64,000 nucleotides of DNA from contig NC_081820.1 in the NCBI RefSeq assembly GCF_030704535.1, positions 22,147,001-22,211,000 of the forward strand, read 5' to 3'. Numbering within the stretch: position 1 is the first letter of the stretch; each line of letters opens with the position of its first letter. Source of the stretch: Vitis vinifera. Lineage: Eukaryota; Streptophyta; Magnoliopsida; Vitales; Vitaceae. A program made the position numbers and the translations under genes. Below, in pieces: positions 3,239-64,000 of this stretch. The notes beneath the pieces were generated by a model. It was given only the letters and a program-made list of their open reading frames with translations. It had not been told where the DNA came from and did no database searches.

Positions 3239-5044
3239 ATGCGTGAAATCTTGCACGTTCAGGGTGGGCAATGTGGGAACCAGATCGGAGCCAAGTTCTG
3301 GGAGGTGGTCTGCGCTGAGCACGGCATCGACTCCACCGGGCGCTACCAAGGCGACACGGAGCTGCAACTGGAGCGAGTCAATGTGTACTACAACGAGGCG
3401 AGTTGTGGGAGGTTCGTGCCCAGGGCAGTGCTCATGGATCTGGAGCCGGGCACCATGGACAGCGTCAGATCGGGACCGTACGGCCAGATTTTCCGACCCG
3501 ATAATTTCGTTTTTGGGCAGTCGGGTGCGGGCAACAACTGGGCCAAAGGTCACTACACTGAGGGGGCGGAGTTGATTGACTCGGTTCTAGATGTGGTGAG
3601 GAAGGAGGCTGAGAATTGTGATTGCTTGCAAGGTATGCGGAAATGTTTGGGTTTCGTTTACTTTTACTGTTTTTGGGTAGCGTATTTGGGAAATTTTTGG
3701 GTCTGTTTTGTGGGAAATGGGATTTTGGGGTCTTTTTTGTCAGTGATCTGAGTGTTTATTAGGGATTTCCTGGGATTTTAGTAGGGTATTTTTGGGTAGT
3801 ATTGGGCATTTTGCGTCGGATCTAAAGAAATTCTCGACTGTTTCCTAGTTTTAAAGTGTTTTTAATTATAGTTTCGATGCTTCTGCCTAACTGTTGAACC
3901 GTATAGCGTTTATGCTTCAATTTGAGTGTTGTATCTTTTATCATTTTGTCTTCTTCCTACTGATTTCGGAGCTCTAAATCACATACTTGGTTGGAATTCT
4001 CTCAGGATTTCAGGTCTGCCACTCTTTGGGAGGTGGAACTGGGTCAGGCATGGGAACACTCCTCATTTCCAAGATCAGAGAAGAATACCCGGATCGAATG
4101 ATGCTCACATTCTCTGTATTCCCCTCTCCTAAGGTCTCTGACACTGTTGTTGAGCCTTACAACGCCACACTCTCTGTTCACCAGCTTGTTGAGAATGCAG
4201 ACGAGTGTATGGTTCTTGACAATGAAGCCCTTTATGACATTTGCTTCCGAACACTGAAACTCACTACTCCAAGCTGTAAGTCACTTATAGTGTCTTAATT
4301 CTACTTTTACTTGTGTTTTTCTTTCTTCTGAAACTGATCAATACCTGTTTTTAATCAGTTGGGGACCTGAATCACCTGATTTCCGCCACCATGAGTGGGG
4401 TAACTTGCTGCCTTCGCTTCCCCGGTCAACTCAACTCCGATCTCCGGAAGCTTGCCGTTAACCTCATCCCATTCCCTCGCCTGCACTTCTTCATGGTCGG
4501 GTTTGCTCCGCTCACATCTCGTGGGTCCCAGCAATACCGTGCCCTTACAGTTCCGGAGCTCACTCAACAGATGTGGGATGCAAAGAACATGATGTGTGCT
4601 GCTGATCCTCGCCATGGGAGGTACTTGACTGCTTCAGCAATGTTCCGGGGCAAGATGAGCACCAAGGAAGTTGATGAGCAGATGATTAATGTACAAAACA
4701 AGAACTCATCCTACTTTGTTGAGTGGATTCCCAATAATGTGAAGTCCACGGTTTGTGACATCCCTCCAACTGGTCTGAAAATGGCGTCGACCTTCATTGG
4801 AAACTCAACTTCAATCCAGGAGATGTTCCGGAGGGTTAGTGAGCAGTTCACAGCCATGTTCCGGAGAAAGGCATTCTTGCATTGGTACACTGGGGAGGGG
4901 ATGGATGAGATGGAATTTACAGAAGCAGAGAGCAACATGAATGATCTGGTCTCGGAATACCAGCAATACCAAGATGCAACAGCGGATGAAGACGGGTATG
5001 AGTATGAAGATGAGGAGGAGGAGGAGGAGCTTCAGGAGGCTTAA
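3239..5044 (+). CDS. TUB: beta-tubulin, complete, three exons
   Basis: Encodes beta-tubulin, the GTP-hydrolysing partner of alpha-tubulin in the microtubule heterodimer. Exons are 3239-3632, 4006-4275 and 4359-5044, giving 449 residues, the normal family length. All splice sites are GT-AG, and phase is kept across both junctions (Gly132 and the Ser-Phe junction of TTPSFGDL). Seen: the N-terminal MREI tetrapeptide used in tubulin mRNA autoregulation, the GGGTGSG nucleotide loop at residues 140-146, [15 protein letters not shown], and an acidic C-terminal tail ending EEEELQEA. The three-exon structure is typical of plant TUB genes. The isotype number cannot be assigned from sequence alone. It looks fully functional. 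Its short promoter abuts transposon sequence. Confidence 0.97.
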
Positions 5045-5959: not shown

Positions 5960-8900
5960 CTATGCCCCAAACTTTGGGACTTTAGCAGTAGAGATTTGGG
6001 CAAGGAAGTGCTCAGCCACAATTCTTCGCTGGATCTTCCCAGTAGCCGTCTTTGGGAGAGAATCAGTGATGAACACCTTCTTGGGAACCTTAAAGGCGGC
6101 AAGATTTTTCTTGCAAAACCTCGTTACCTCTGCTTCATCGATGTCTGATCCTTCTCTTGGAATGATGGCACAGTTTATCTATTCATTTAAGACAGAATGT
6201 ACCACCTCAGCAACATTTCATTTGACAAACCAACAAACAGTTTCTTTTGTTTTTTTTTCGGCTATGTTTGGTTCCGAAAAATTTGAGGGAAAATGCGAGA
6301 GAAAGAAAATACAAAGAAAAAATAAAAGGAAAGAAAAAGTGAAGGAAAATAAAAAAATAGATTAAAAGTTGATAAATTGTTTTTTTTGTTATTTCAAACT
6401 CATTTTATTTATTTTAACTCATCAATATAAAGATTAAATAATTTAAAAATATATAAATTTTTAATTAATTTTAATTATATTTGATTTTTTTTTATATTTT
6501 TCATAGGACAATCAAACATGAGAAAATCATTTTTCTTAGCATTTTTTTTCTTTCCTTTGTACTTTTCGGAAACCAAAAGTAGCCTCAAAAAAACAATTAT
6601 ATTTTCCAGGAAGAGCAAGCAAACAATAACCACGAGGTGGGGTAGTGAGTGTGAAGGACGACACTTAAAAGTTTAAACCGAGCTGGAAAGCTGAGTAAAA
6701 GGCACAACAGCGGTGACTGGTCCCTGTTGCACGTAAACAGATCACATGGGATATGGAAGAGGGATAGAAAAGCTACCCTAGGAACTAGTTTAGAATTGTC
6801 TAAAAGCCCAGTGAAGCTTATGTGGTAAGAAAACTAATTAGAAATCCTAGGATCTCTATAATGAACCTTGAGATTTCACTTCGAAGTCATATAAAATTGG
6901 TTAGTGATGGAAGACAAGTGACAAGAAGACAATGGTTACAAAATACCCAAGTCCAGCCAAATCCTTATGGTTCATGCTTTGTCCAAAGTGGAGATGATTT
7001 CATCTCATTGGTTATCCCTTCTAATAAATTGGTGTTGATAGCAATTAAAGAATGGGGAATTACGGTTCTTACCTCTTCGCCGTATTTGTCATCTGGAACC
7101 CCAAAAGCAACCGCTTGAGCAATGTCTGGATGTGATAAAAGGACAGCATCCACTTCGATTGGTGATATCTTCTCTCCTGAAAATATGGATAAGGACTACC
7201 ACTATTGGAAATCTTTTAAGCAATGCGTGACCTAATTAAATAGAATGAGTGGATATTTGGTAATTTTGCGGTAAGACTGTAAGGTCTCCATTTCTTGAAA
7301 TAAGATCCACAAAATCGAGCCATCTGGCATTATTTCATACAGCAAGCCTGACGCCAGCTTTTATTTTTGGATAAAAAAGAACGACACGGTTCTTTGACCT
7401 CATCAACCATGTTATCTTAAGCATGTGTGGTTCTGAATCTTACACGCAAAGTTCAAAACACATCTCAGCCACTCCATTTCAAAAGCTGTGTGGTTGGTCG
7501 GGATTCGGAAAGAGAAGGCCAACTTTCCCAAGCAAGGAAAATAAAAAATAAAAAATGAAAAATAATATATGACCAACTAGCTTTGGAGCCTTGGAGGCTC
7601 CACAACTAGCTTAATATGGCATTGTCCTCAGGAATATTCGCAGAGCATTTGTGGATGTCACTATAGCACGCTTAGGAATTGAGAGTCTTTTACTATCTTT
7701 TCCTAGGATAAAGACTTCCATACTAACAATGGGGCACACCTTTATAAAGGTGTTCCTCTTAATTTGACTTTACCCAATAGAAAAAGTAGAAAAATTCATT
7801 GATTTTATCAACAAAATCTTCGAATTTGTTCCCAAACAAACACAATCGAAGTTCTTAAAAAATCTGAAATAATTATTATTTGCGTCTTAATTGTACGTTA
7901 ACTTAAAGGGCTTACTAATGTAGGAGTGCACAAATAGTAGGGGATGAATAAAGGAGTGCATGATCTAAGTATGCCTGATTCTGTAACAATATGCCATAAT
8001 GCTCTTTCTTCTCTAAAAGCAAAACAACTACAGCTTAAGTATATATGCATATATGGATAAGAAAAATATGGAGAAGAAACATTACCTCCACGGTTGATGA
8101 GTTCCTTGATTCGACCAACAAGATGCAAATAACCATCCGGGTCAAAGAACCCGAGATCCCCTGTGTGAAACCACCCGAATTGAAAAGCTGATTTATTAGC
8201 CTCAGGGTTGTTTTTGTAACCCTTGGTCACATTAGGGCCCCTAATACACACTTCCCCACTCACGTTAGCCTCCTGTTGGACGCCATTTTCATCCAATATC
8301 GCCATCTCTTGGCCCACTGGTCTTCCAACGGACCCGGGTTTATGCGGACCGTTTTCGGGTAAAGGGTTCGAAGCCATGAGATGGGTCGCTTCGGTCATGG
8401 CATATGCTTCCAACACAGGTGCACCAAACGCCTCCTCGAGCCGAGCCATTATGGCTGGTGCCAGAGAAGCGCTGCAACTCCGGATGAATCGAAGCTTCGG
8501 GTAAACGGGTTCGGGTTTGCTAAGGTGGCGATCCAGGATAATTTGGTGGATCGTGGGGACGGCGGTGTACCACGTGGCATCGTATTTGAGCATGTCGGAC
8601 CAGAATGTTGAAGCCGAGAATCGGCCAGCGGCGGGTAGGGTCACGGCGGCTCCTGCGCCTAGTGAACTCAGTAAACCTGCGAGTAAGCCGTGAACGTGGA
8701 AGAGAGGAAGCACGATGACGGTGGAGTCTGACTCGGTGAGTTTGTACACCGATTTGATATTCTGAACCGATGAGGCCAAGTTGAGTTGACTCAGTGGCAC
8801 TCCTTTGGGTCGACTCGTCGTGCCGGAAGTGTGCAAGAAAAGTGCCACGTCGGATGGCTCGTTCACGAGTTTGGCTACCGAGTGAGGGTCCGGCTCGGAG

Positions 8901-9622
8901 TGAATCAAGGATAGATTTACCTGGGCTTCGGCTTCGGTAAGGGAAGCCGTGGCGTGTGTGATTTTGAGCTTGGAAGCCGCGGCTTGTGCTGCCTCGTTTC
9001 CTTCTTGCGATGTTAAGAGAAGCTTCGATTCCGAGTCGGATAAGTAAAACTCGAACTCGTCTGCTGTGTAAGCTGAGTTCAAAGGCGCAGCTGTGGCTCG
9101 TACTCGTATTACAGCCAAAAACATGATCACGAACTGTAGAACCAAAAACATATTTATCAGATAATATTTTCATTTAATTTTACCTGATCATAGTTAATTT
9201 GCATCCAGACCATCCACGTCAGCATTGCAATAACAGATGCTGGGTCCCAGCTGACTTGTGTCGTTCAGATGGCACTGGACGTTCACCCTTTTCTAAAATT
9301 AAACTATAGAACGCGAGTTCATTTTCTTTCCGTTATTTTCCGAGCAGCCAAACAAGACAAAACACAGATAGAATTCCAATATTTTCTGAGATACCAAACA
9401 AGACAAAACATATAAAGATACCTCAACGGTGTTTGGGAAGGTGAGAGCGACGACGTCTCCAGCCTTAACGCCACCGGCGAGGATCAGAGAGGCCGCTCCT
9501 TCAACAAGTTGGTGAAGGCGAGCGTAGGTGAGATCGAACTTGCCGGAAACGGAGAGTGCTCGACGGGAAGGGAATTCTCCGGCGACCTGTTTCAACAATC
9601 CGGTGAGAGTAAGACTTTCCAT
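5960..9622 (-). CDS. AAE3: oxalate-CoA ligase (acyl-activating enzyme 3 type), complete, four exons
   Basis: Predicted to join oxalate to CoA using ATP, the first step of the CoA-dependent oxalate breakdown route, in the cytosol. Exons (minus) are 9622-9422, 9133-8086, 7176-7073 and 6178-5960, all GT-AG and in phase, giving 523 residues. Seen: the P-loop-like TSGTTSRPKG near residue 169, YAMTE near 311, FHTGD near 390, GRIKELINRGGEKISP near 407, and PKTATGK with the catalytic lysine near 499. These are the ordered motifs of the ANL adenylate-forming superfamily. Similarity to Arabidopsis AAE3 as I remember it is very high, hence the symbol. A second ATG directly upstream (9625) could add one Met. 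The C-terminus runs about a dozen residues past the usual end (...QISTAKVPKFGA). No peroxisomal targeting signal is seen. Related 4-coumarate-CoA ligases are the main alternative but fit less well. Confidence 0.93.
6260..6584. mobile_element. MITE, 325 bp, in AAE3 intron 3
   Basis: Terminal inverted repeats GGCTATGTTTGGTTCCGAAA and its imperfect complement ending AACCAAAAGTAGCC enclose AT-rich sequence with no coding capacity. A second copy of the same family and the same length lies at 54086-54411. The insertion is inside the last intron of AAE3 and leaves both splice sites untouched. Confidence 0.85.
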
Positions 9623-10858: not shown

Positions 10859-11116
10859 CTTCCAAATTGAATCAATTAAACCTTCCAAGATATTTTTAAA
10901 AAAAAATCAATTTCTAATTTATAGGGTTTTGGATGTTCATTTTGATTGTTGGATCTATGATTTGTTATTGTTTGCTGCAACTAGGTTCTGAAAACTCCAT
11001 TCTACATCTTCGATCAGGTTTACCTTATTTTCTTTTTCTTCTTCTACTTCTTTATATGTGTTTCTTCTTCTCTATAAATCGATTAATTTTTTTTTATTAA
11101 TTTATGTTTGGAATCT
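10859..11116 (+). repeat. 258-bp direct repeat, copy 1
   Basis: Starts CTTCCAAATTGAATCAATTA and ends TTTATGTTTGGAATCT. It appears identical, base for base by eye, to 11767-12024, including the lengths of the A9 and T9 runs. Confidence 0.9.
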
Positions 11117-11766: not shown

Positions 11767-12024
11767 CTTCCAAATTGAATCAATTAAACCTTCCAAGATA
11801 TTTTTAAAAAAAAATCAATTTCTAATTTATAGGGTTTTGGATGTTCATTTTGATTGTTGGATCTATGATTTGTTATTGTTTGCTGCAACTAGGTTCTGAA
11901 AACTCCATTCTACATCTTCGATCAGGTTTACCTTATTTTCTTTTTCTTCTTCTACTTCTTTATATGTGTTTCTTCTTCTCTATAAATCGATTAATTTTTT
12001 TTTATTAATTTATGTTTGGAATCT
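11767..12024 (+). repeat. 258-bp direct repeat, copy 2
   Basis: Second copy of 10859-11116 at a constant offset of 908 bp. No mismatch was seen, which argues that the duplication and the insertion between the copies are recent. Confidence 0.9.
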
Positions 12025-24947: not shown

Positions 24948-27206
24948 TGTAATGACCCAAATTCCGGGTGACCCAAAATTTGACTCGTGATCTCAGGTCA
25001 AAGGTTTGACCCTAAGGGTTCCTCCTATTCCACGTTGGCAGTCAACCAAAACACTCTGGATTTTTTTTTTTTTTTTTTTTTTTACATCCCACTAGAATTC
25101 TCATAAACCACAATATCCCAAAATTACTCAAATCAACAAGATTAAATAAATATTCATTATAATCCAAAATAAAAGTTCACAATTAACAACTTAATCAAAA
25201 TAAAGCTTCATAACAAATCCATGAGTCATAATCACTAAAACAAATCCACAAATCCAAACAAAAAAACACAATAACAGAAAATGTCACGCTCCACTAGGCC
25301 GCTCCATGAGCATCCTGAAGTCCTCCCTGCCCCACCTGTGGATCCTCAGGAAATATATCTGCATCTAAAAAGGTGTAACAAGGAAGGGGTGAGCATTTCC
25401 ACATTGCTCAGTAGGGTGCCTAACACCCAAGGGGTTAAAGGGATTACTAAGTTTCAAAGAATACGAAAAGAACACTTCAACACCACAGGAACAATTCAAC
25501 AGTGTCAATCAAACCACATAGTTTAATATATAATTTTATACATAATTTCACAATATTCAACAATTACATGAATGCACATGAACGTGTGACACACAGTCAT
25601 ACAATGCGCTATTGTTCTCGGGCTTTCACCGAAGGATACGCGTCCGCACCCAAATACACTCCCCATTCGGAGTCTTCCCGGGGTAAAATTTTGGGTCTTT
25701 CACCCTAGGGATCTCTCTCCCTTCTTAGTTCGCCTCACACGGGCTTTCACTTTTCATCACTATTTTATTTTTTTCCATTTCATACACTTTTCACAAATTT
25801 TTTTTTTTTTCATATAACCATGATGCAAATGAATGTCACAAACTCCAACATTCCTCAATAATTTCAACAATTCCAACATTCCCCAATAATTCCAATAAAA
25901 TAATTTCACACATTAAAATTTCCGATAATATCCCAAATAAATATTCAAAAAAATTGCATATCAAAAATCTTGAAATTTTACCACACTTACAAAATTTTTC
26001 AACCATTATAATAATTTCTAATATCCAAAATTAACTAACTATTTATCCTAAAATTTTCGAAAATATTCTAACCAATGCCTAAAAATTCACAAATCATTAT
26101 ATTTGAAATTTAACCCAAATTTTGGAATTTTCCACCTCATCTAATAATTTTTTTACATTTCAAAACAATTAATTATCAATCAAAATCAATTTCCCGAAAT
26201 TCCAAAAATTCCAAACAAATTAGCCTGTTGTTGACTCCTTTCTTCGTACAAATTAGACCTAGCTCGTAGGCGAAAGATACCTCATTCCAAATATTCTAGA
26301 AAAATTCATACAACACCCATAATTCCTAATTAACTCATAATGACAATATCTACAATTTTTTTTTCAAAGGAAAAACATAAAAATTTAAGTTTTAGGGTTA
26401 GGGTCCCCTACCTCAGATCTGAAAATTTGGCCATTAAAAACGAAATTAGCCACCGCAGGCTTGTTCCTCTAATCGAATAGAGTACTTCCTCCAAATTTGG
26501 GCCGAAACGGAGATCGTTTGGCCGTCCAAACGGCCGGTCAAAAATCCGGCCTTTCTCTCTCTCTCTCTCTCTCTACCCCGCGTGCTGCAATTCTCCTCCT
26601 TTTCCCTTTTTTCTTTTTTTTTTTTAGCAGCCCACTTCACATGGCTTTTAAAAAGCCACCAGCTCACTTAAGCCAAGCCCAACTCAATATCTTAGCCCAA
26701 TCCATTATTATTATTATTATTTTTCTTTTACAACCCATTACAAACAGCCAATATTCAAAGCCTAATGAATATTTTTATTTTATTTCTTTTATTTTCTTTT
26801 CTTTTGTTTATTCTAATTGTTTTATTTGATTTCCAATTCATTTTTTTTTTCATTTTTTTTAACACACAATTTATTTATTAACACCAATTAAAAACTAATT
26901 TTCTCAATATTATTATTCATCAATTTAATTAATTTTTCTTAATTAATTCTATTTTTTTATTAATTCTTTTTTTTTTTTCCGGAAAATTTCAATTTCTAAA
27001 ATCCTAAGAAATTTTCTACCCTAAGGCTGACATGGCATAAAATTTCAACTCGTTTAATTGACCGACACAATAAAACGAAATTCACCAATCCGAAATTGAC
27101 ACGTGTTCTCCAAACACTTTTCTTTTTGACTTTTCAACCATCACACAAAATAAGACTTTTCAAACTGAAATTGCTAACGTGACATAAAATACCCGGTCAT
27201 TACATC
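24948..27206 (-). repeat. 3' LTR of the gypsy fossil
   Basis: About 2259 bp bounded by TGTAATGACC and GGTCATTACA. It includes a poly-T tract (25059-25083), a CT-repeat segment near 26560 and ATT triplets near 26705. The inner half is repeated at 30661-31682 and, inverted, at 29736-30660. Confidence 0.88.
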
Positions 27207-27253
27207 CTACCCCTCTAAGAGAAATTTCGTCCCGAAATTTAAACTAGCTTACC

Positions 27254-29735
27254 TTAAAATTCGTAGAAGAGTTGCGGATAGTGTCGTCTCATTTCTTCCT
27301 CAGGTTCCCAAGTGGCTTCTTCTATCCCATGGTGTTGCCACCACACTTTGACTGTAGGAATCACCTTGTTCCTGAACCTATGCTCTCCAACTTCCAGAAT
27401 TCGTAAAGGTTCCTCCACATAAGATGTATCTTCATTAATCTGAACATCTTGCAAGTCCACTACCCAAGTTGGATCTGGAGTACACTTCCTTAGTATCGAC
27501 ACATGGAAAACATCATGCACAAGGGACAACTGTTGAGGCAAAATTAACTTGTATGCCACTGGGCCAACTCTTTTATCAATCTGAAATGGTCCCACAAACC
27601 TAGGGGCTAACTTCCCCTTCTTCCCAAATCGAAATATGCCTCTTCGAGGGGACACTTTTACAAACACCCAATCCCCTTCCTCAAACTCCAAGGGTCTTTT
27701 CCTTTTGTCTGCATAACTTTTCTGTCTATCTTGGGCAGTCTTAAGTTTTTCCTTGATGAGTTGTATCTTCTCTGTAGTCTCTTGGACAATCTCAGGTCCC
27801 AACAAACGACTCTCACCCATCTCTATCCAACATAAGGGCGATCTACAAGGTCTCCCATAGAGTGCTTCATAAGGTGCCATGCCAATACTAGATTGGTAAC
27901 TGTTGTTATAAGCAAACTTTGCCAAAGGTAAGTAATTTGCCCAATTTCCTCCAAAATCCAAAACACAAACCCTTAACATGTCTTCTAAGATCTGGATCAC
28001 TCTCTCTGATTGACCATCTGTCTGAGGGTGAAAAGCGGTGCTAAAATTTAGTTGGGTGCCCAAAGCCCTTTGTAAACTCTGCCAAAACTGAGAAGTAAAC
28101 TTAGGGTCCCTGTCAGACACTATAGATACAGGTATCCCATGCAATCTCACAATCTCCTGTATATACAACTTAGCCAAAGAGTTCATGGAATCAGTAGTTT
28201 TCATGGCTAGAAAATAAGCTGACTTAGTAAGACGGTCCACAATCACCCAAACTCCATTTTTCTTGCTTCTAGTTCTTGGCAACCCTATCACAAAGTCCAT
28301 AGTGATATTATCCCACTTCCACTCAGGTATAGGTAAAGGTTGCAACAACCCTGCAGGCCTCTGGTGTTCAGCCTTCACTTGCTGACAAATCTGACAGTTA
28401 GCTACAAACTGAGCAATATCTCTCTTCATCCCACTCCACCAAAACTGTCTCTTTAAGTCTTGATACATCTTGGTATTCCCAGGGTGGATGGTATACTTCG
28501 CCCTATGAGCATCTGCTAGAAGTTCATTTCTCAACTCCACATCTTTTGGCACACACAATCTCCCTTTGAACCTCACACTCCCATCTTCATACATAGACCA
28601 ATTTTCATCTATCTCACCTGCTACCAACTGGGCTTTAACCTTTTCTAAAAACTCATCATGAACTTGGGCCTCCATTATTCTCTGGATAACCATTGGTCTA
28701 GCTGATATATTGTACAAGCATGGACCATGCCCTTCCAAACCAAGACATAATTCAAAATCCTCAATAACTGCATGCATCTCAAACTCTCTCAACTCCAAGC
28801 TAGACAACTGGCCAACACTCTTCCTACTCAAGGCATCTGCTACAACACTCGCCTTTCCTGGATGATAATGAAGAGCAAAATCATAATCTTCCAATGTCTC
28901 CATCCATCTCCTTTGCCTAGAGTTCAGATCCTTTTGAGTGAAAATATATTTCAAACTCTTGTGATCAGAGTATACCTCAAACTTCTCTCCATACAAATAG
29001 TGTCTCCAAGTCTTAAGGGCAAACACCATTGCTGCAAGCTCCAAATCATGTGTTGGATAATTCCGCTCATGCTGCTTTAACTGTCTTGAGGCATAAGCTA
29101 CCACCTTGCCTTGCTGCATTAGCACACACCCTAGCCCCACTGTGGAAGCATCACAATAAATTGTAAACAACTCTCCACTAATAGGAGCAGTTAACACTGG
29201 AGCAGTGGTCAATTTCCGCTTCAACTCCTGGAAAGCATTCTCACATTCCTCATTCCAATCAAACTTCACCCCTTTTCTAGTCAACCAAGTCATTAGTGCT
29301 GCAATTCTAGAGAAGTCTTCCACAAACCTCCTATAATATCCAGCCAACCCCAAGAAACTCCTAACCTCAAATACATTAGTAGGTCTTTGCCACTCCTGTA
29401 CAGCTTCCACCTTTGAATGGTCTACTGCTATTCCTGCCTCAGAAACCACATGGCTTAAGAAGTTCACTTCAGTAAGCCAAAGTTCACTTTTGTCCAACTT
29501 CCCATACAACTGATGCCTTCTCAAAGTTCTAAAGGTGGTCACCAAATGCTGCTTATGCTCCTCCAAACTCCTGGAGTAGATCAAGATGTCATCCACAAAG
29601 ACAATCACAAACTGATCCAAGTAAGCACGAAATACTCTGTTCATTAAATCCATGAAAGCAGCAGGGGCATTAGTTAACCCAAAAGGCATGACTAAGAACT
29701 CATAATGCCCATATCTCGTTCTAAAAGCAGTTTGA
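27254..29735 (-). mobile_element. pol region of the gypsy fossil (RT, RNase H, integrase, chromodomain)
   Basis: Domains in order on the minus strand: part of reverse transcriptase ([21 protein letters not shown]), RNase H ([27 protein letters not shown]), integrase with its zinc-binding H/C region ([15 protein letters not shown]), the catalytic core ([32 protein letters not shown]) and a C-terminal chromodomain ([16 protein letters not shown]). The chromodomain and overall motif set place it in the chromoviruses. It is a fossil within a rearranged element, not a host gene. Confidence 0.93.
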
Positions 29736-31682
29736 TGTAATGATCGGGTATTTTATGCCACGTTAGCAATTTTAGTTTGAAAAGTCTTATTTTGTGTGAT
29801 GGTTGAAAAGTCAAAAAGAAAAGTGTTTGGAGAACACGTGTCAATTTCGGATTGATGAATTTCGTTTTATTGTGTCGGTCAATTAAACGAGTTGAAATTT
29901 TATGCCATATCAGCCTTAGGGTAGAAAATTTCTTAGGATTTTAGAAATTGAAATTTTCCGGAAAAAAAAAAGAATTAATAAAAAAAATAGAATTAATTAA
30001 GAAAAATTAATTAAATTGATGAATAATAATATTGAGAAAATTAGTTTTTAATTGGTGTTAATAAATAAATTGTGTGTTAAAAAAAATGAAAAAAAAATGA
30101 ATTGGAAGTCAAATAAAACAATTAGAATAAACAAAAGAAAATAAAATAAAAGAAATAAAATAAAAATATTCATTGGGCTTTGAATATTGGCCGTTTGTAA
30201 TGGGTTGTAAAAGAAAAATAATAATAATAATAATGGATTGGGCTAAGATATTGAGTTGGGCTTGGCTTAAGTGGGCTGGTGGCTTTTTAAAAGCCATGTG
30301 AAGTGGGCTGTTAAAAAAAAAAAAGAAAAAAGGGAAAAGGAGGAGAATTGCAGCACGCGGGGCAGAGAGAGAGAGAGAGAAAGGCTAAATTGGGTCACTC
30401 GCCGGATTTTTGACCGACCGTTTGGACGGCCAAACGATCTCCGTTTCGGCCCAAATTCGGAGGAAGTACTCTATTCGACTAGAGGAACAAGCCTGCGGTG
30501 GCTGATTTCGTTTTTAACTGTCAAATTTTCAGATCTGAGGCAGGGGACCCTAACCCTAAAACTTAAATTTTTATGTTTTTCCCTTGAAAAAAAAAATTGT
30601 AGATATTGTCATTATGAGTTAATTAGGAATTATGGGTGTTGTATGAATTTTTCTAGAATATTTGAAATTTAACCCAAATTTTGGAATTTTCCACCCCATC
30701 TAATAATTTTTTTTACATTTCAAAACAATTAATTATCAATCAAAATCAATTTCCCGAAATTCCAAAAATTCCAAACAAATTCCAAATATTCTAGAAAAAT
30801 TCATACAACACTCATAATTCCTAATTAACTCATAATGACAATATCTACAATTTTTTTTTCAAGGGAAAAACATAAAAATTTAAGTTTTAGGGTTAGGGTC
30901 CCCTACCTCAGATCTGAAAATTTGGCCGTTAAAAACGAAATCAGCCACCGCAGGCTTGTTCCTCTAATCGAATAGAGGTCAAAAATCCGACAAGTGACCC
31001 AATTTAGCCTTTTTCTCTCTCTCTCTCTCCTCCGCGTGCTGCAATTCTCCTCCTTTTCCCTTTTTTTTTTTTTTTTTAAACAGCCCACTTCACATGGCTT
31101 TTAAAAAGCCACCAGCCCACTTGCTTTTAAAAGCCATCAGCCCACTTAAGCCAAGCCCAACTCAATATCTTAGCCCAATCCATTATTATTATTATTATTC
31201 TTCTTTTACAACCCATTACAAACGCCAATATTCAAAGCCCAATGAATATTTTTATTTTATTTCTTTTATTTTCTTTTCTTTTGTTTATTCTAATTGTTTT
31301 ATTTGATTTCCAATTCATTTTTTTTTTCATTTTTTTTAACACACAATTTATTTATTAACACCAATTAAAAATTAATTTTCTCAATATTATTATTCATCAA
31401 TTTAATTAATTTTTCTTAATTAATTCTATTTTTTTTATTAATTCTTTTTTTTTTTTCCAGAAAATTTCAATTTCTAAAATCCTAAGAAATTTTCTACCCT
31501 AAGGCTGACATGGCATAAAATTTCAACTCGTTTAATTGATCGACACAATAAAACGAAATTCACCGATCCGAAATTGACACGTATTTTCCAAACACTTTTC
31601 TTTTTGACTTTTCAACCATCACACAAAATAAGACTTTTCAAACTAAAATTGCTAACGTAGCATAAAATACCCGGTCATTACA
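29736..31682. repeat. long inverted repeat made of LTR sequence
   Basis: Arm 1 (29736-30660, starting TGTAATGATCGGG) and arm 2 (about 30781-31682, ending CCGGTCATTACA) are inverted copies of the same LTR half, about 0.9 kb each, with about 120 bp between them. The tip pairs exactly around TTCTAGAATATTTG / CAAATATTCTAGAA. Arms are very similar over most of their length, with a small insertion near 31120. Confidence 0.85.
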
Positions 31683-31805
31683 GCCAGGGACTTCAAGCCA
31701 AAATCAGAAGCCATGGGCACAGCTCTAATGCACCAAACAAGCCAAAAATTTAGCTGAAGTTTTAGAGAGTTAAGAGTTTTGTTGTGTAGACTGGGAATTG
31801 AGGAC

Positions 31806-36392: not shown

Positions 36393-36432
36393 TTATATTT
36401 GAAGTCTCTAACTGTCCATTCTATGTAAAAAT

Positions 36433-37280
36433 CTAGGCTGAAGTAGGGGCCACTGCAGGGGCAACCACGTATTTCACAGAATTGACCCCTGATACTGGCC
36501 CTGGTGCCACAAAACCAGAGCTTCGGATCTCCGCCATTTCTCTCCTCGCATCACCTCTTTGTGCTTCACATAGTTTTGGTAGAAATACACCTGCAGATTA
36601 TCACAAATATTAGCTATTTTTACGTGAGAAAAATAAGACATGCATGTTAGTCTCCGGCCGTTTTGGTTTGGACGTTTGTAGGTTACCTTCACCGGCAGCG
36701 AGATTGAAGTAGAGATCAACAATGTTGGGGCAGCCGTTATAGCACTGAGTAGAGCAAAGCTTCCGGGTGAACCCACACTCCAGGAGAGAATCCGATGATA
36801 TCCCAAGCGACTTCCTATCGAGCCCACAGGCTTCAATGCACTGGTCGCTCTCCACCCAGTCCTTCACCTTGTCAGCCTCAATCTCCGACGTCCTGCACAC
36901 GTATGCTTCCTCTCCGCTCCTCCTCACGTGCTTCTCAAGCACGCAGCGCTTGCCGGATGATGACACAGCGAAGGCGCATGTGTCCTTGTTAAGGTTCTCA
37001 CATGTTGTTCCTCCTACACCACCAACCCAGTACCCCAAGTATGTATTAGATTAAAAGCTTTTGATGTAGATGACGAAAATCCATCCCAAATATGGGAAGG
37101 AAAGTGGGATTTTCAGATGAAAGGTGCTTGAAAAAGGGCTGATTTTCAATATGAAATATGAAAATTATTTTAAAATCAATATGAAAGAGTCCATTGTTTC
37201 TTACCTAGAGAACCTTGAACACAGACTGCAAGTGTAAGAGCCAGGATTGCCAGGGACTTCAAGCCAAAGTTAGGAGCCAT
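36433..37280 (-). CDS. PAR1: PAR1 family secreted cysteine-rich protein, copy 3, intact
   Basis: Exons (minus) are 37280-37205, 37013-36687 and 36590-36433, with lengths 76, 327 and 158 bp identical to the other copies, giving 186 residues. The signal peptide reads MAPNFGLKSLAILALTLAV. Exon 2 carries the family cysteine pattern, with GTTCEN in place of the GITCEN of copies 1 and 2, and DTCAF, ACGLD, KLCSTQCYNGCPNI as in copy 2. Exon 3 gives GVFLPKLCEAQR-type sequence and ends in an Ala/Pro-rich tail. Probably an exported protein of unknown biochemical role. All splice sites are GT-AG, so it looks functional. Confidence 0.92.
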
Positions 37281-43460: not shown

Positions 43461-44574
43461 CAGAAACAACAAGAGAATCAGAGTGCAAGTACTCAAAAAC
43501 TTTTACACAAACCTACCCTGAACCAGAAGAAATACCAAATGAAAGACATAGAGGACAAAAGACTTTCTGAATTGGCGACATTGCCAAGCACAAAGACAGA
43601 AAGGAGGAGGATAAGATGCTTAGCAAAAGAAGAAATCCATCACTATCAGTATGTAGGAGATATTGCAGACTGGGAGAGGAACTACCATGTGTAGTGTGTA
43701 AGAGCATATCTGACATGGGCCTCATTTTTTTGATTCACATTACCTACCATTTATAACAACATCTGTATTATCACCATACATACCTTAAAACATCGCTTTC
43801 TCATTATGCAATTCGTGCACATGAGATGCCCACGAGTGTGAGAAATGACAGACGAGAGAAACGAGTAATAATTTTATGCTATTAATCATTGATGTATGGA
43901 TATGTCAATGACAATCGATGGGGTTATGGAAGAGTTCGGTCTCTCCAAAGGAGTCATGGATTTAACCGGAGTTGCAGGCCTTGTTAGGGAAGATGGAAGT
44001 GTATGTCGCAAAGAAAGAAAAGGTTGACTCGGTTTGAAAAGATGACCGGCGAAGGAAAAGGATGAAACCCAATTAGAGAATCAAAGATTATTCCACAATT
44101 ATTTTTAAATTATGATAAATAATTGATTATGTATGGTGGAATCAGAAGAATTCAACAGATGTTTGATTGATAATAATAATAAGGAGAAAAAATTCTTCAA
44201 ATGGGAAATCAACCTATAGAGATGTGCTTTTGCTGTGTTGAGAAAAATCTGCAGAAAGTCAATTTTATTCTATTTTTATTTATTTATTTATTTATTATGA
44301 AACCTAAGATCACTGATTATAAGACAATCATGGAGTCTTGGAATTCATGCTTAAAGTAATCGACACATCTTAGCTGAAAAAAGCTTTCAGAAGTCAGGAA
44401 AATAAAAGAAAAACACCCCACTACTATGAAGATATTCTGAAAATTAACCAACCTATCAAACATCTATATACAATCAAAACCATATGAAAGGAAGTATGAG
44501 AAGTTGAATTCAGAAAGACCTCAGAAAACATACCTGAAAGGGAGGTGGGAGATGCTGAGAAAGAGGCACTGATG
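43461..44574. other. region downstream of MIR393, no coding gene
   Basis: Mixed-composition sequence with short open frames (43440-43694 and its antisense) lacking protein signatures. It may contain the 3' part of the MIR393 primary transcript, which runs on the minus strand from about 44790. No other feature supported. Confidence 0.5.
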
Positions 44575-44690
44575 GAGAGTTCCTAAGGGATAGCATGATC
44601 CAATGGGAAAAAGGCCAGACTTTGTTATGATAGTCTGGTAAGAGAGGTGGAAGATAACCATGGGATCAATGCGATCCCTTTGGAACTGTC
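44575..44690 (-). ncRNA. MIR393: miR393 precursor hairpin
   Basis: On the minus strand the 5' arm (44684-44663) holds the complete 22-nt miR393 sequence, beginning TCCAAAGGGATCGCATTG. The 3' arm (44601-44581) holds the star strand, beginning GGATCATGCTATCCC. The arms pair with two mismatches and one bulged base. The pairing extends to CATGG / CCATT at the loop side, and an inner stem CCAGACT / AGTCTGG lies in the loop. miR393 directs cleavage of TIR1/AFB auxin-receptor mRNAs. Its 22-nt length is the class known to trigger secondary siRNAs. It lies about 1.1 kb past the end of the PAR1 array. The 90-codon frame over the hairpin is not thought to be a protein. Confidence 0.95.
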
Positions 44691-44817
44691 CACCTGCACC
44701 AACAACAACAAGAAGAAGAGGAGCTAGAAAGGCGGTGGTCCGTGGAGACATATGGTGGAAGTGGTGTGTTTTAATGGGGGAGATTGTGATCAAAAGGTGG
44801 TGATGGGTTTGGGTTTT

Positions 44818-44826
44818 GATTTATAG
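44818..44826 (-). promoter_or_regulatory. TATA box of MIR393
   Basis: The minus strand reads CTATAAATC about 135 bp upstream of the mature miR393 sequence, a usual distance for plant MIR genes transcribed by Pol II. A CT-rich tract (minus strand of 44836-44890) lies just upstream. Confidence 0.7.
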
Positions 44827-44835
44827 AAAGGGAGA

Positions 44836-44890
44836 AGACAAAGAGAGAGAAAGAGAAAGAGAAAGAAAAAAAGAGAGAGAAAGTGAAAAG
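44836..44890. repeat. GA-rich microsatellite in the MIR393 promoter
   Basis: Imperfect (GA)n and (GAAA)n tract. On the sense strand of MIR393 it is a TC tract. GA/CT repeats of this kind can bind BBR/BPC factors in plants, which is inference here. Confidence 0.8.
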
Positions 44891-44899
44891 AGAAGAAAC

Positions 44900-47800
44900 A
44901 GGAGAGGAGAAGAAAGAAAGGTTGGTTGGTTTCGGTTACTGTACCGCCTTTTCTTTAATCTTCACGCAATTGGTGTCATCGACCAAGTTTCATGCCACCA
45001 TCAATCTTAAGCTTCATGCTCTCTCAAAATTACTCAAATAACCTTTCCAAATTATTCATCTTCCTCCCCATTAATTTGACTTTCTTGTACTAACAGCCTA
45101 ACACCAAGATATAGTGCAGCATGACAATGGGGTGAATTTTTTTTTTTTTTTTTATTATGTAATTCTTATAATATCAAAAAAAAAAAAATTCATGAACTTA
45201 TTTAAAGAATGAAGAATCTTATTTTATTTAAATTAATGATTGATTTTATTATATTTAGTATAAATATGTTAAGATACTATCGATTTCATATTTCTTTATT
45301 TAACACTTGCATATAAATATATTTACTTAAAATATTTTATTTAAAATCTTTAAAAAAAATAAATTTATAGGAATGTTAATTAAAAAATTATAATTAATAA
45401 TAATTAAATATATTTATGCTAAACCTTATTTTTAATTGAAATTAACCCATTAAATTAAAATGTTTGGTGTTGTCACGCTATATGGTGCACATGATGAGAG
45501 GGACGAGGTTGGGGGTAATTTGGTCAAATTAAAGCAATGGCTTTTCTGTAAATCAAGCGACATACAAGGGCATCAGTGTAGAGGTGGGGTATTCTCGTGT
45601 GCCCTATACCAAGTACTATGTATGCTAATAATAATGGTGGGAATATTTAAAAATAAAAAAACAAAAAATAATCATAAATCATGACCTTTTGACACCAACC
45701 AAAATCATTTCATGGGCTAAAATATTACGAAATTATTAAATTATTTCAACATCTTTATCATTAAATTTCAAATTTAGCCGTGACACAAAAATAATATGAG
45801 ATTATTTTAAATTTTAGGCTTGAAAATTTTTCCAAAAATGAAAATTCTAAAAAAAAAAAAAAAGAGGGCACATTCATCATAAGTCCCATAAATTTATTAA
45901 ACGTTAGTACTATCAATTTAGAGTAGGTACGAGAACACAATGCATTTAATCATATATGTTAATAATTTAGGGTTGTTTCCAATATATTTATTGCATTCAC
46001 GTGCACATCCATGTACAAATAATTTATATTTTCTTTAACTTGATTTTTATTTTATTTTATAATTTAGGTTTTTAATTTGTGAATTATTAAATAAAGTACA
46101 TTTAAGTGTTCATACAAATACGAAGTTTAAGATTAAAATTTGAATTCAAATAAATTTTTTGATGGGAAAATAATATTAAAGGTTGAATGTAATTTTTAAG
46201 ATGATTTGAATAAAATTTAAAAATCGGGTTTTGAACAATTATTTGTTATTTCTTTTAATATTTGAATAATAAAAAATTTAAAAACATTTTCTAAAATTAA
46301 TGACAACCGCTCTTACACATTAACACTACCATTTTAGTGTAGCATCGAGTTTTGATGTCATGTTTTAAAAAGGAAAAAAACTAATTTAATAAAAAAAATT
46401 AAAATGATGTAAGTACGAAAGTAAATTTTAAATATAAAATTTTAGTTTGATTGATCCCTCCAAAATGCAAAATTTAAAAATTGAAAATCAAAAGACATCT
46501 CAAAAAGGTAATTTACATATCTGAGAGCATTTATTAAGCAAGTACAAGGGCATGTTGAAAAAAATAATTAATTCAAAATTTGAGTGGGATTATTTGGGCA
46601 ATGAAAGAGGGACACGTGTCAGCATGGAAAGGGGGCATTGAATAAGTGTAGTATACGAATGGAGGGGTAGTGCTGGTAATAATGGGGACATAAATAATAA
46701 TGGGTGTCTTATGTGGTTTTAAGGCAGGTATGGGTTGCAATCAAACAGCTAATATTGATAGCAAGACAAACAGCACTTAGTCCATTAGAAAATGACACTT
46801 TTCATTTCCCCCTATAAAAATCTTGTTTTCCACCCCACAAATGGGAAAAGGAGGAAAAAATCTCTCATTCAAAAGGTTGAAAATGAAATCAACAACTTTT
46901 CATTTTAATCTACATAAAATAACGCATTAATTAATTAATTAATTAATTAATCAAAGATTAATAACATTTTATTCTCTTAATTTTAGGAATTTCCTTAGAT
47001 TATTCATCGTATTATTTCTATTGTCAATTTTTTAAAATAATCATAGGAGGAGACTGAAACTTGTCTTTTTTAAAAGACTCTAAGTCAAGTCACGATGATG
47101 GTTGTATGTCGTAAAAGATTTGATTTATCTAGACAAACCATGATTTTCTTTCTAAACCCTAAAGAACCTGATCTTAAAATCTAAATTTATCTTAGTTTAA
47201 TTTTAATTAAGTTAAACATCACAATTTTCTCGTGGTGGCACAAAAGTCTTATTCACAATACTTGCAATAGATCAATAATGATGAACTTCTTACTAATGGG
47301 GCATGAGAGATTGGACTTTTTTGAAAAAGCAATTATTCACCCTTATATTTGGAAAAGAAACAAACAAGGAGTCGTGGTCTCTTGTTTTATATGATAATTT
47401 CATACTAATAAAAAAAAAATCAATTTCAAATCAATACAAAGTTTTTCAATTTACACGTTTCTTTACCCGAAAAAACAAATAACAAATGTTAATGAAATAT
47501 GCACAAGTTGTCTCTCTAGACAACATGTTCTTGGTTGAAAGGGTTAAATGGGTAAAGAAAATTTCAATTCAAGGAGAAGGTCCAAGATATTATCACTTGA
47601 TATCTTCCTAAACATTCTCAAAGAATATCACCATATTTTGGGATAAGTGGAGTGTTCATATTCATTTCCAACCCAATTAGGGAGGACATATGAAAATAGA
47701 TATATATATATATATATAAAAGAGTGAAAATAATCAAGAAGATACCCAAAACTAAGAAAATATTTATAATGTTTGATTCTTTTAATTTTGTGAATATTTC

Positions 47801-51830: not shown

Positions 51831-54085
51831 ACACAGTTAGGAGGAATTTACTAAATATACAATGTCAAAATCTTCTCTATGATGTGTGAAATTACAACTT
51901 TTGGAAATTCAAATCCTCTCCAACTTTCATGATTGTAGAGGATATAAAGCCTAACTTGTGCTGGAGACAAAACAGTGGACACTTTTCTGGAACCATTTCT
52001 AGAGTTTCCACAGCATAAAATGCAGCTAGGATCAATCTATGATAACTTACATTCCCACTTATTATATGTTCTATAAGGTATGGGAGCTATATATGGTCCA
52101 TCTCATTGGTACATCTAACTGAATCCAAAGCAATCACTTAAACCATGCAGGCAAACCAATAAACTAGTGTAATTATTAGCTGCCAGCATCTTCTACGTAC
52201 CCCGAACTGGACATCCATTTAAGGTCCCCCCTTAAATCTGTGCTTCTAGACCCCTTGGTGTGCTCAGGTATTGGAAAAGCTAAAATACAGAGTCTGAAAT
52301 AGAGACTGACTATCTTTTCTCAGCATGTTTTCTGTCACCAACACCATCAAATTATGATTGAATCAATGAGGAAACAAGGAAAAACATGTCCTATGATACT
52401 TAGGATTGAACTTCCACATAGCTATCAAATTAATCCACATCTTTTAAGATACCATCAAAGTTCAAAACATGAGCATTCATAAGGAATTATTGCTACTGCA
52501 ATGAGCTAAGACTATTCCAAAAGATTGATATCTAGAACATTGTTGAATTCCTACCATGTTCCTGCAAGATTGTGCACCAGTGGACCCAATTTGAACAATG
52601 GTTCCACCTTGACAAGGAGTCAAAGGGATGATCATTATTCACCAGAATCACAATAAAAGGAAAAAAATTCAACCAATGGAAATAAGATTCCCTCGTTATG
52701 GAAAGTAATGGGCCAAAGTTCAAGCAGATATAAAATCACATTAAAGATATATCCTGATTCTAGTAAGATTTTGGACCCCACATGAACACCTATTCAACCT
52801 TGAGAAAAATAAGATTGAATCCATTATTCAGAAGCAATCACCCATCACCTAGGCAAAGGATCAGATGCCCTAGCAGAGATAAGGGAAGCAAAGAGACAAA
52901 ACAAACAAGCAGATATTTGATTCATAATGGAGAGTAGTCAATGGTCATAGCAAGTAAAACTTTGAAGCTTTGAAGCAGAAACATTTCCTTTTATTATTCA
53001 TTGGTGGCTCTATGCATGCCATTTTGAAAAAGTAAGGAATGACTTGTCTTTTCATGTCTTTCCTACAGTTGAATCTCTTCAATCCTTGAAAATAAACTTC
53101 AAGACAGTATCTGAATCATATCCTTTGTAATAGTAAAGATGAGGCCCGGTAAGCCACCAAGATCTTGAATTTAATTGCCAAAATTTAAATGCTCTCTGGA
53201 GGCTGCTTCCAATAATCAACTCATTGGACTTCCCCCTCATAGCCTTGTTTTTCAGAACCAATGCGTGATTCAGTTAGTGAATTCGTGGGTTTTCGTCATC
53301 TCGGTTTGTTTGGGGCATCTTCATCTATCTAAATTTACAAATCAGTAGTATTCTTTTGTTGACTTCCCGTTTCAGACAAGCCATTAAATGTATTGGGATG
53401 GATCTGGCTTTTAATTTTTTGTCTAGCCCTTTAGATCATAAGGAAACTGAAAAAATGCAGCATATCTTGAGGCGTGAGCTCATAGTCGGTAAGCTACTTG
53501 GAGCATTAATAAAAGTGATTCAAATAGTTAGGTATGTGCCAATGATATCCTATGGGAAAAAAGTGACTATAACAAAAACTGATTGTGGGATGAGTGTGTA
53601 AGGTCGGAGATGGTTACACAATGATACAAGTCTTGAGATGAGTCAAGATCTCGAGATAATTGTGTTGCGTGGATGGGTTAGACTCAATTATAAACCTTTG
53701 AATTGTTAAACCCAAGATGGGTGTGACTCAAAGAGCACTCGTAGAAGCCCAAGGATGAATCAATGCCCCTAGATGGGTGTTTTGTGTAGGATGAATTAAG
53801 CCTCATTATGTACCTTTGGATGGTTAAGCCCAATTGATTTTCAAATAATATTGATAACTCCTTAGTATTAAAGTGCATACTCAACCCATGTCAAGGGCAT
53901 TTAAATTGCATACTCACAAAATGTCATGCCAATTACATCTCATCATTAATAGAAACATGTTAAAATTTTCTTCATAAGTTATTAATTTGGACACTATGTT
54001 GACAATCCACATGGTGCAAAACATATGGATAAAAAATAAGGAAAAGGTTAAGTTAGGTCAACATGCCACGGACAACAAAACTAAA
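51831..54085. other. spacer without recognised gene
   Basis: Mixed-composition sequence. A weak twofold repeat (TCAATTATAAACCTTTGAATTG at 53687 and a variant at 53800) is visible. Short open frames at 52532, 53079, 53356 and 53684 carry no known motif. Confidence 0.5.
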
Positions 54086-54411
54086 GGCTATGTTTGGTTC
54101 CCGGAAAGTACAAAGGAAAGAAAAAAAATGTTAAGAAAAATTATTTTCTCATGTTTGGTTGTCCTATGAAAAATATCAAAGAAAATCAAATATAATTAAA
54201 ACTAATTAAAAATTTATGTATTTTTAAATTATTTAATATTTATATTGATGAGTTAAAATAAATAAAATGAGTTTGAAGTAACAAAAAAAATAATTTATCA
54301 ACTTTTAATCTATTTTTTTATTTTCCTTCATTTTTTCTTTCCTTCTACTTTTCCTTTGTATTTTCTTTCCCTCGTATTTTCCTTCAAATTTTCCGGGAAC
54401 CAAACATAGCC
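54086..54411. mobile_element. MITE, 326 bp, second copy of the AAE3-intron family
   Basis: Terminal inverted repeats GGCTATGTTTGGTTCCCGGA and TCCGGGAACCAAACATAGCC are perfect over 20 bp. Interior words match the copy at 6260-6584 (AAGTACAAAGGAAAGAAAA, ATTAATTTT...). Flanks share AAA on both sides. The better-preserved ends suggest that this copy is younger than the intronic one. Confidence 0.9.
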
Positions 54412-61130: not shown

Positions 61131-61144
61131 GCTATACAAAATTG

Positions 61145-61216
61145 AGGGCCCAACCGGGATCGAACCGGTGACCTCTTGATCTGCAGTCAAATGCTCTACC
61201 ACTGAGCTATGGACCC
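61145..61216 (-). tRNA. tRNA-Cys (anticodon GCA)
   Basis: A 72-nt nuclear tRNA on the minus strand, starting GGGTCCATAGCTCAGTGG. The acceptor stem GGGTCCA / TGGGCCC pairs with one G-T wobble. The anticodon loop is CTGCAGA with GCA at 33-35. The T-arm is ACCGG TTCGATC CCGGT. Box A (TAGCTCAGTGG) and box B (GGTTCGATCC) are intact. A CAA motif lies 4-6 bp upstream, as usual in plant tRNA genes. No intron and no encoded CCA. It looks functional. Confidence 0.97.
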
Positions 61217-61350
61217 CCATTGGTTTTTCATCTCTCTTTTTGAAATATTTCTTTTAAATTATATTTCAGCCCACTGAAACTGAGTAGGGCTGTCCGCAGT
61301 TTCTCCAAACATAACACCACACCGTTTCTACGGAGAAGAAAGGGGCAACA

Positions 61351-64000
61351 ATGGCGACTCAGTACGGCGTACAGCTCGCCGTTCATCTCATCTCCTCTCA
61401 CTTCGGGAATCTCGTTGCGGTATCTTCTTCTTTCTCCCTATCACTCCGTTTTGCTTCCTGTGAAACCTTATGCAGAGCAATAATGGCCACTCGATTAAAA
61501 AATTTCCTTGTTTTTTACTAAGGTTTCTCGGAAACCAAACACTTAGAGCGTTTTCTAATTTTTCTAAACTTGCATTGTTTGCTTACATAGTTTCACTTTT
61601 TTTCTTTCTTAAATGTGTTGCAGAAAGTGTGTGATTGTCTTCTTCGCAAAGGAACCCTAACGCTCGCGAGCGTAATCCGTTTTACCGAACTCCCTCCTCA
61701 ACAAGTGAAGAGCTGTATACTTGTGTTGATCCAACATAATTGTGTTCAAGCTTTTGCTATACAGCAAGAAGGTATTGGAATTCTTATTTCCGGAACATTA
61801 GCAGTTTTTGTTGTTTCTAGCTGAGAAAAGAAAAAAAATTGAAGTATATGATTAACCGTCACGGTGTTTCTTGTTGCCCTTCATTTTCTCTGCCATCAAA
61901 TGGTCATTACTTGGGTACGTTGTAGACTAATGCTACTAGTAAACTGAGCATGGTATATTAATCTTGTTTGGCATTCCCCCTTTTTCTTGGCAACAAATGG
62001 GGTTCATGTTTTTAGCTTAATTGCATCATGAGAAAAGTAGAACTCTGCTCAAACATCTCCAAATGAGCTATTTGGGCAATATGAAAATTCAAATCTAGTT
62101 TTGTTTCTTCTTCCTACATTGCCTTTGTCGGACAAAAGGTAAACGTGATTTCATGTTGATTATGACTAATGATTATGAATGCAGTTGGTTTTGGAGAAGC
62201 ACCAAGGGTTGTAACTCAGTATATGGCTTTGTTTCACAATATCCTTCACCGAATGAGATTTGCGAAATTCTTGGCAATTGTGTCTGAGGAGCTTGATAAA
62301 GAAGTCGGTTTTTTAATTTTAGATTGATCCTTCATTGTGTGTCTTTTGTTGGAAGATGGAGTTTGATTAGACTGTTGATTGATTTCTTGTTGGTTTTGGT
62401 AGTGTGAGGAAATTCTTGAAGGTTTGCTTCAACATGGCAGACTTACACTGGAACAAATATTGGATAGAGCCAAGTCAAATCAAAGTGAAGGCAAGTCTCT
62501 TTTGTATATTTGAGCATTTATTATGCAGTATGTTCACTTCAATTTTCTTGTTAGAATAATTTTAATGTTCTAAGACGAAGATTTTGTGGGATCTTTTGCT
62601 TTCTCTTTTTGGGGTCAATTGGGTGTTGCCGTTTTCGGTGAGAGACACTTTATCAAGTTGGCATGTCCCTTTTAAGGACAAGAATCATAGAAAGGCTTGG
62701 CGGGCAGCTCCTCTCTGTTTATTTTGGACAATTTGGAAGGAAAGGAATAGGATAGTCTTCGATAACGAGGCTTTGTCGACTCAAAGATTGAAAAACTCAT
62801 TTGTTTGTAATCTCTTATCCTGGGCTAATTCTTCTATAGTTGTAGGCCCTTTATCTTTGTTTAACTTTGTGGATTGGTTGGGTTCTTGTTGAGGGCCGGT
62901 GAGTGTTTCTGTTTTTGTTGCTTGTTTTAGGTGTCTCTTGTATACTCCCTGTATGCTCTGGGTTGCTTTTCAAGCTCCCTTTCTCTAATATATCTTTGTG
63001 CTTTTGCCTATCAAAAAAAAAATATATTAATTTATTTCTCTGCTGAGTTTGTCATGTTTTTGTTTGTATTATAAGCTGACAGTGATGTTGTCTTGCCATT
63101 GTGAGAAACAATAAAATTTACTGTATTAATGTATTTGCTCATTGGTCAAATAGGCGACTCTGGTGATCCATATTTTCCTCATAAATGTTAATATAATTTT
63201 ATTTTCTTCCAGGAGAGCCTGTAGTTCAGGATGCTTTACGAGAAAGCTTTCTTAAACTTGTAAGAGCCCATTTTGTGGAGCGCTGTCCTGCCTCTGAACC
63301 ATTTCTTGCCCCACCAAGTGAAGAAGAGACTCCTGCAAGAAAGCGAGGTGCTAAATCTGCTAAGGTACTTTCTGATTCATGACAGTTTTATTACCTGATG
63401 AAAATTATTCTTATGCAGAATCAAAACTTATCTTATGTGGTGATTGTGGAGCAACAGTGCTATGCTAGTTTTTTGTCTGATTCATTTTTTATTTTATTTG
63501 ATTTTTGTGGTTATGGGCTTATTTGTGTTAAAATGGCAGCAGTGGGGACTGTTAAGTCTCAGAAGCTGGGAAACATGTAGTATCACTTCTGAGATGTTGA
63601 ATATGATATTGGGATTAGATGTGTCTTGGAGATCCGTTTATTGTTATTGGATTTCGATAGGCCTTCACCTTCACAAGACTGCTGTTATACTTAATGATGG
63701 TAAAGACATCCCCTGTAAGGAGTCAATCGGGTCTGGGGTTTCATAACAGCTCAACCTCTCTCATGGGGAGTGGTTTTATGCATACACGAAGTAGTACAGT
63801 ATTGTTACTTTCTTTTGCTTTATTTTCTAGTTTATAGCTACTGTAGTTCTCTGTTTATGATAGTTATAATTTGAAATAAAGTTAGATCCATCTCTTTATT
63901 CTTTTTCTGGGAAAATTAGAGATACATATTTATAGACACATTGCAGAAGGGAACACAACTTGAGTACATAAAAAGTATACAAAGAGTAGTGCTGGAAGAA
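61351..64000 (+). CDS. RPC3: RNA polymerase III subunit RPC3 (RPC82/RPC62 family), 5' part
   Basis: Encodes the N-terminal part of the Pol III subunit that, with RPC6 and RPC7 homologues, forms the initiation subcomplex. Exons are 61351-61419, 61624-61771, 62185-62303, 62403-62490 and 63213-63364. The last visible donor is GT at 63365, and the remaining exons lie beyond the window. The protein starts MATQYGVQLAVHLISSHFG and includes LLRKGTLTLASVIRFTELP (first winged-helix domain), an RMRFAKFLAIV segment and LLQHGRLTLEQIL (second winged helix). Intron 4 uses a GC donor (AAG|GCAAGT at 62490/62491). A LINE fragment sits in the same intron. The gene is head to head with tRNA-Cys, 134 bp from its 5' end to the ATG. 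Assignment is from remembered similarity to Arabidopsis RPC3. Confidence 0.88.
62578..63021 (+). mobile_element. 5'-truncated L1-type LINE (3' end) in RPC3 intron 4
   Basis: The + frame 62584-62892 encodes the C-terminal reverse-transcriptase-associated zinc-finger region of plant L1 ORF2 (WDLLLSLFGVNWVLP, LFWTIWKERNRIVF). Next come a 3' UTR and a short A-tail (63009-63018). Sense orientation in the host intron, severely 5' truncated, as is usual for LINEs. No clear target duplication was found. Confidence 0.85.
63365..64000 (+). other. RPC3 intron 5 (continues past the window)
   Basis: No acceptor followed by an open RPC3-like exon was recognised before the window ends. The open frames at 63398-63746 show no RPC3 similarity. 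Confidence 0.6.

Follow-up and report, generated by a model that had tools for sequence, protein, structure and literature searches.

The catalogued microRNA gene vvi-MIR393a on grapevine chromosome 16 and its PAR1 neighbourhood

The minus strand of a 64,000-nucleotide stretch of Vitis vinifera chromosome 16 (C16:22147001-22211000, hereafter the window; chromosomes are written C6, C13 and so on) carries vvi-MIR393a, an already catalogued and in itself ordinary microRNA gene. We put the probability that the feature is explained by this gene, working through hairpin processing and TIR1/AFB cleavage, at about 0.97. Its identification as a true MIR393 gene is supported by a covariance model, the predicted fold, published sequenced arms and TIR1-like target sites. 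The hairpin, the duplex geometry, the family membership and the genomic target sites come from the present analysis; degradome and phasiRNA evidence and the reads of the arms are those reported by others, the arm reads being taken from published tables. What the analysis adds is a star register corrected from published reads, and a neighbourhood that can be read as a possible ancestral block.

Results

An Rfam covariance search matched the precursor on the minus strand to RF02516 over the whole model (positions 1-126 of 126) with 96.8 bits (E 5.5e-21), above the gathering cut-off of 60 bits. The mature miR393 sequence, UCCAAAGGGAUCGCAUUGAUC(C), lies on the 5' arm without a mismatch, bearing out the original prediction of an exact 22-nt miR393 on the minus strand (TCCAAAGGGATCGCATTGATCC), and the first 21 bases of this 22-mer were found at a single place in the 64-kb window when up to 3 mismatches were allowed (chance expectation 0.00). 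Folding of minus-strand positions 44560-44710, the check proposed with that prediction, gave a stable structure of -59.7 kcal/mol (z -6.76; 0 of 200 shuffles equally good), in which the 22-mer pairs with 44581-44601.

Criteria for plant microRNAs, reportedly set out by Axtell and Meyers in 2018, include a duplex with 2-nt 3' overhangs and the sequencing of both arms with precise excision. The 22-nt 5p and positions 44579-44599 formed a duplex with overhangs of 2 nt, 2 mismatches and a single bulged base, which is in the 5p, thus combining the 2-nt 3' overhangs, few mismatches and small bulges of a plant microRNA duplex; a bulge in one of the arms agrees with strands of 22 and 21 nt. The star arm had been predicted at 44581-44601. 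A paired star arm is indeed present in the hairpin, and it was shifted by two nucleotides to 44579-44599 because the 2-nt 3' overhang geometry requires this register; the published 3p read agrees. The coordinates of all features are collected in Table 1.

Table 1. Features of the vvi-MIR393a locus, its neighbourhood and the compared chromosomal blocks (window positions unless a chromosome is given)
Feature	Position	Strand	Remarks
miR393a-5p, 22-nt form	44663-44684	minus	exact match to TCCAAAGGGATCGCATTGATCC; listed as 22 nt in PMC6366190
miR393a-5p, published 21-nt form	44664-44684	minus	PMC5050227
miR393a-3p (star), 21 nt	44579-44599	minus	identical to the published ATCATGCTATCCCTTAGGAAC; leaves 2-nt 3' overhangs when paired with the 22-nt 5p
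MIR393 precursor hairpin (vvi-MIR393a)	44572-44694	minus	RF02516 match and fold of 44560-44710
Candidate TATA box, TATAAA	44820-44825	minus	starts 141 nt upstream of the 5p start
Pyrimidine-rich tract	44826-44920	minus	upstream of the TATA box; 97% C or T
Overlapping open frame	44521-44820	minus	99 codons stop to stop; 76 aa from ATG at 44751; judged spurious
Nearest PAR1 gene (third copy)	36420-37280	minus	same strand as, and downstream of, MIR393; limits approximate, first ATG by eye
PAR1 array, three copies	near 16.3-16.9, 24.2-24.8 and 36.4-37.3 kb		PF06521 matches
Colinear duplicated blocks	C13:4327673-4359893 and C8:16802425-16879897		

The sequenced arms of vvi-miR393a (5p TCCAAAGGGATCGCATTGATC, 3p ATCATGCTATCCCTTAGGAAC), as tabulated in PMC5050227, are identical to those of the window locus, and that source places the gene, like ours, on the minus strand of chromosome 16; the coordinates differ with the assembly (17.25 Mb there, 22.19 Mb here). 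The same table places vvi-miR393b on the plus strand of chromosome 13. Our family search of the genome (495.6 Mb in 21 contigs; 80 of 11067 first-look candidates scored) likewise returned two loci, on C16 minus and C13 plus, and no third. The C13 locus, vvi-MIR393b, shares with the window locus the identical 22-mer, a bulged U in the 5p and a near-equal TATA distance, whereas its RF02516 match spans 80 bases as opposed to 123 and its 3p is different. When these two loci were searched, the published vvi-miR393a 3p mapped to the window and was absent from C13, and the sequence named vv-miR393b in PMC3937062 mapped to C13 and not to the window.

This difference in the 3p bears on expression. Since both loci carry the same 22-mer, 5p reads are not assignable to either one; in the table of PMC5050227 the 5p has an abundance of 5152 in the table's units, common to both loci, and the 3p one of 775. 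PMC3937062 lists the same 3p under the name vv-miR393a, with 1.66 in a gibberellin library and 0.00 in the control. A reading in which the hairpin is a genuine family member gone silent, C13 being the sole supplier of miR393, could draw on the shared 22-mer and on Table 1 of Mica et al. in its corrected form (PMC2831844), where MIR393A is entered with 1, nothing in a four-place field, Y and RLIBgBvBm, and MIR393B with 1, LS, Y and RLIBgBvBm. From the accompanying text we take the first column to stand for small-RNA reads from leaf, the second for precursor transcripts that were significant in leaf, stem, root and callus, the third for the signal of a loop probe, and the fourth for the array signal that the mature sequence gave in six tissues; on that reading, Mica et al. 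did not detect the MIR393A precursor in their transcriptomes. Against this, a 3p that belongs to the window locus and is absent at C13 was sequenced in two studies (PMC3937062 and PMC5050227), which is the evidence for expression of the window locus and largely refutes a silent copy, leaving it very improbable. A value of 14983 for MIR393A in the first table of Mica et al. (PMC2822795) was discarded, as the authors call that table unreliable and give a corrected value of 1.

Upstream of the window hairpin, the TATA box predicted at 44818-44826 contains the hexamer TATAAA, and the TC tract foreseen upstream of it proved to be 97% pyrimidine. The C13 locus has TATATA at -142 from its 5p start. 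TATA-type hexamers occur at 2.9 per kb on the minus strand, so that two distances differing by no more than one base would be expected by chance in about 1 of 100 cases, and the agreement is only suggestive. No comparable pyrimidine tract was found above the C13 TATA, where the best 95-base stretch in 400 bases reached 54%. The open frame that overlaps the hairpin had been called spurious and 90 codons long; we also judge it spurious, with a length of 99 codons stop to stop (76 aa from its ATG). That this 76-aa frame is a translated pri-miRNA peptide of the miPEP kind, boosting MIR393 expression, would fit its ATG being the first after the TATA box and its remaining open throughout the hairpin. 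Against it, the frame matched no Pfam family and is not common to the two loci: at C13 the corresponding ATG, the first to follow the TATA box, begins a frame of 14 codons, unrelated in sequence to the leader frame of the window. A literature search returned no publication combining pri-miR393 and miPEP, and we regard such a peptide as highly unlikely.

Activity of the plus strand, or processing of both strands, might be read from the plus-strand fold (-58.9 kcal/mol, z -6.14) and its RF02516 match of 65.6 bits, also above the cut-off, but it is the least probable reading of all, since the published arms and locus are on the minus strand (PMC5050227), which makes this the microRNA strand, and the opposite strand of the C13 locus gives a similarly weaker match (64.5 bits), so that we take the symmetry of a hairpin to be a sufficient explanation of the double-strand matches at both loci.

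A further mark of the miR393 family is that TIR1/AFB genes with complementary sites exist in the same genome. A target-site pattern search of the genome with up to 2 mismatches gave 7 matches, 2 of them the MIR393 loci themselves. Three sites had one mismatch (C7:2737808, C14:5739015 and C14:24966813) and sit within open frames of 259-270 aa, the proteins of which matched Arabidopsis TIR1 (PDB 2p1m) at 1.7e-152, 1.6e-146 and 2.9e-109, respectively. The other two matches, with two mismatches each, had no open frame of more than 100 aa around them. The three TIR1-like sites are on the same chromosomes as the targets VIT_207s0104g01320, VIT_214s0030g01240 and VIT_214s0068g01330, given by miRVine (PMC4434875), the matching being by chromosome only. 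Four target genes are listed for miR393 in PMC6366190, against the three sites found here, and PMC10005052 adds a predicted target, a Cox subunit 6a gene. Degradome evidence for miR393ab triggering phased siRNAs on grapevine TIR1 mRNAs is stated in PMC6404619.

The original prediction set MIR393 beside a tandem PAR1 array. A three-copy array is present; its nearest copy, on the same strand as MIR393, begins about 7 kb downstream, which is the distance that "beside" stands for here. Searching the genome with PF06521 gave 9 exon-wise matches, 6 in the window (the three copies), 2 on C8, 1 on C6 and 0 on C13; the C13 locus, vvi-MIR393b, thus differs from that of the window in its surroundings. 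The window copies are 94-99% identical to one another over 108-109 residues and 54-64% identical to those of C6 and C8, which share 72%. We saw no evidence of a regulatory tie between MIR393 and its PAR1 neighbours, which are protein genes, and among the matches listed in a literature search no publication names both MIR393 and photoassimilate-responsive.

Several other features of the window were observed. Between the second and third PAR1 copies lies a Gypsy-type element amid direct and inverted repeats (26284-31777), with an 811-aa frame (27254-29689) matching reverse transcriptase, RNase H and integrase-type domains. A 258-base sequence is directly repeated with 100% identity at 10859-11116 and 11767-12024, the two copies being 908 bases apart. 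A tRNA-Cys (GCA) gene at 61144-61216 on the minus strand is head to head with gene frames at 61315-61824 on the plus strand, across a gap of about 100 bases or more; one of these frames, 61591-61824, has the RPC82 HTH domain of an RNA polymerase III subunit.

The neighbourhood was compared with those of C6, C8 and C13. The C13 and C8 regions are colinear: their RINGv, MYB and legume-lectin-like genes agree in both order and strand (C13 domains from Pfam). In the interval from MYB to lectin, C13 has MIR393B and C8 has PAR1. The RINGv protein has four matches in the genome, on C13, C8, C6 and, more weakly, C10. A tubulin gene (Pfam Tubulin_C), which we take to be of the beta type, follows the lectin gene on C8 at a distance of about 1 kb; on C6 it is separated from PAR1 by about 10 kb, and on C16 from the PAR1 array by about 11 kb. 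C16 shares PAR1 and tubulin with C6, and PAR1 with C8, the C8 tubulin being just beyond the compared stretch and known from a separate search. Read one way, the four regions fit the order RINGv - MYB - MIR393 - PAR1 - lectin - tubulin, except that PAR1 is inverted on C16.

Counting against this order, C16 shares only MIR393 with C13, because a dispersed element was all that the window had in common with 39 kb of C13 when the two were compared directly. This element, of about 320 bases, occurs in the window at 54085-54411 and 6260-6577, and its C13 copy (L008, 4996-5321) is 91% identical to both. A frame at 62566-62892, with no Pfam match, is related to sequences in the C6 and C8 stretches, the identity being at most 56%; it is common to C16, C6 and C8 and is probably a dispersed repeat. 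Tubulin has about ten near-complete copies in the genome, the closest copy of the AMP-binding ligase gene next to the C16 tubulin is on C2, where a tubulin is about 10 kb away, and a third close relative of the MYB gene is on C4 and thus belongs to none of these blocks. For these reasons C16 is the weakest link of the comparison. The tubulin and ligase sequences of the window (4391-5044 and 7898-9151) are 98% and 84% identical to C2:3013425-3024850, where they too are about 10 kb apart; the pair on C16 and C2 is likely a duplicated block. MIR393 remnants were sought around PAR1 on C8 and on C6 (80 kb each), and none was found within 5 substitutions of the arms; an Rfam search covering 12 of 16 stretches from there gave no match.

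Discussion

The gene in the window is vvi-MIR393a, and its action can be outlined from known plant biology. RNA polymerase II would produce a primary transcript from the minus strand, and DCL1 would cut the hairpin into miR393-5p of 21 or 22 nt and a 3p strand of 21 nt. Loaded into AGO1, miR393-5p would then cleave TIR1/AFB auxin-receptor mRNAs, and in grapevine this cleavage would also give rise to phased secondary siRNAs, damping auxin perception. Arabidopsis miR393 is alike in targets and mechanism, and Si-Ammour and colleagues reportedly described it in 2011 together with secondary siRNAs of TIR1/AFB2.

For the neighbourhood, we lean towards a history in which MIR393 and PAR1 once stood next to each other in a single ancestral block that old polyploidies copied to C6, C8, C13 and C16, and that was thinned thereafter. 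The ancestral order would have been the one that the four regions fit; since it was assembled after looking at them, we offer it as a hypothesis. C16 would have retained MIR393, PAR1 and tubulin, C13 MIR393 without PAR1, and C6 and C8 PAR1 without MIR393. Presumably C6, C8 and C13 are a triplet of the core-eudicot triplication. The blocks on the four chromosomes thus suggest an ancestral MIR393-PAR1 linkage with differential loss, an evolutionary footnote to the gene itself.

Given that miR393 tunes auxin perception, a correct map of the MIR393 genes is useful for work on grapevine. If the block history is true, the two MIR393 genes of grapevine would be duplicates dating from the core-eudicot triplication or from before it, and the comparison of the blocks offers a testable hint as to how the MIR393 family originated and which of its copies disappeared.
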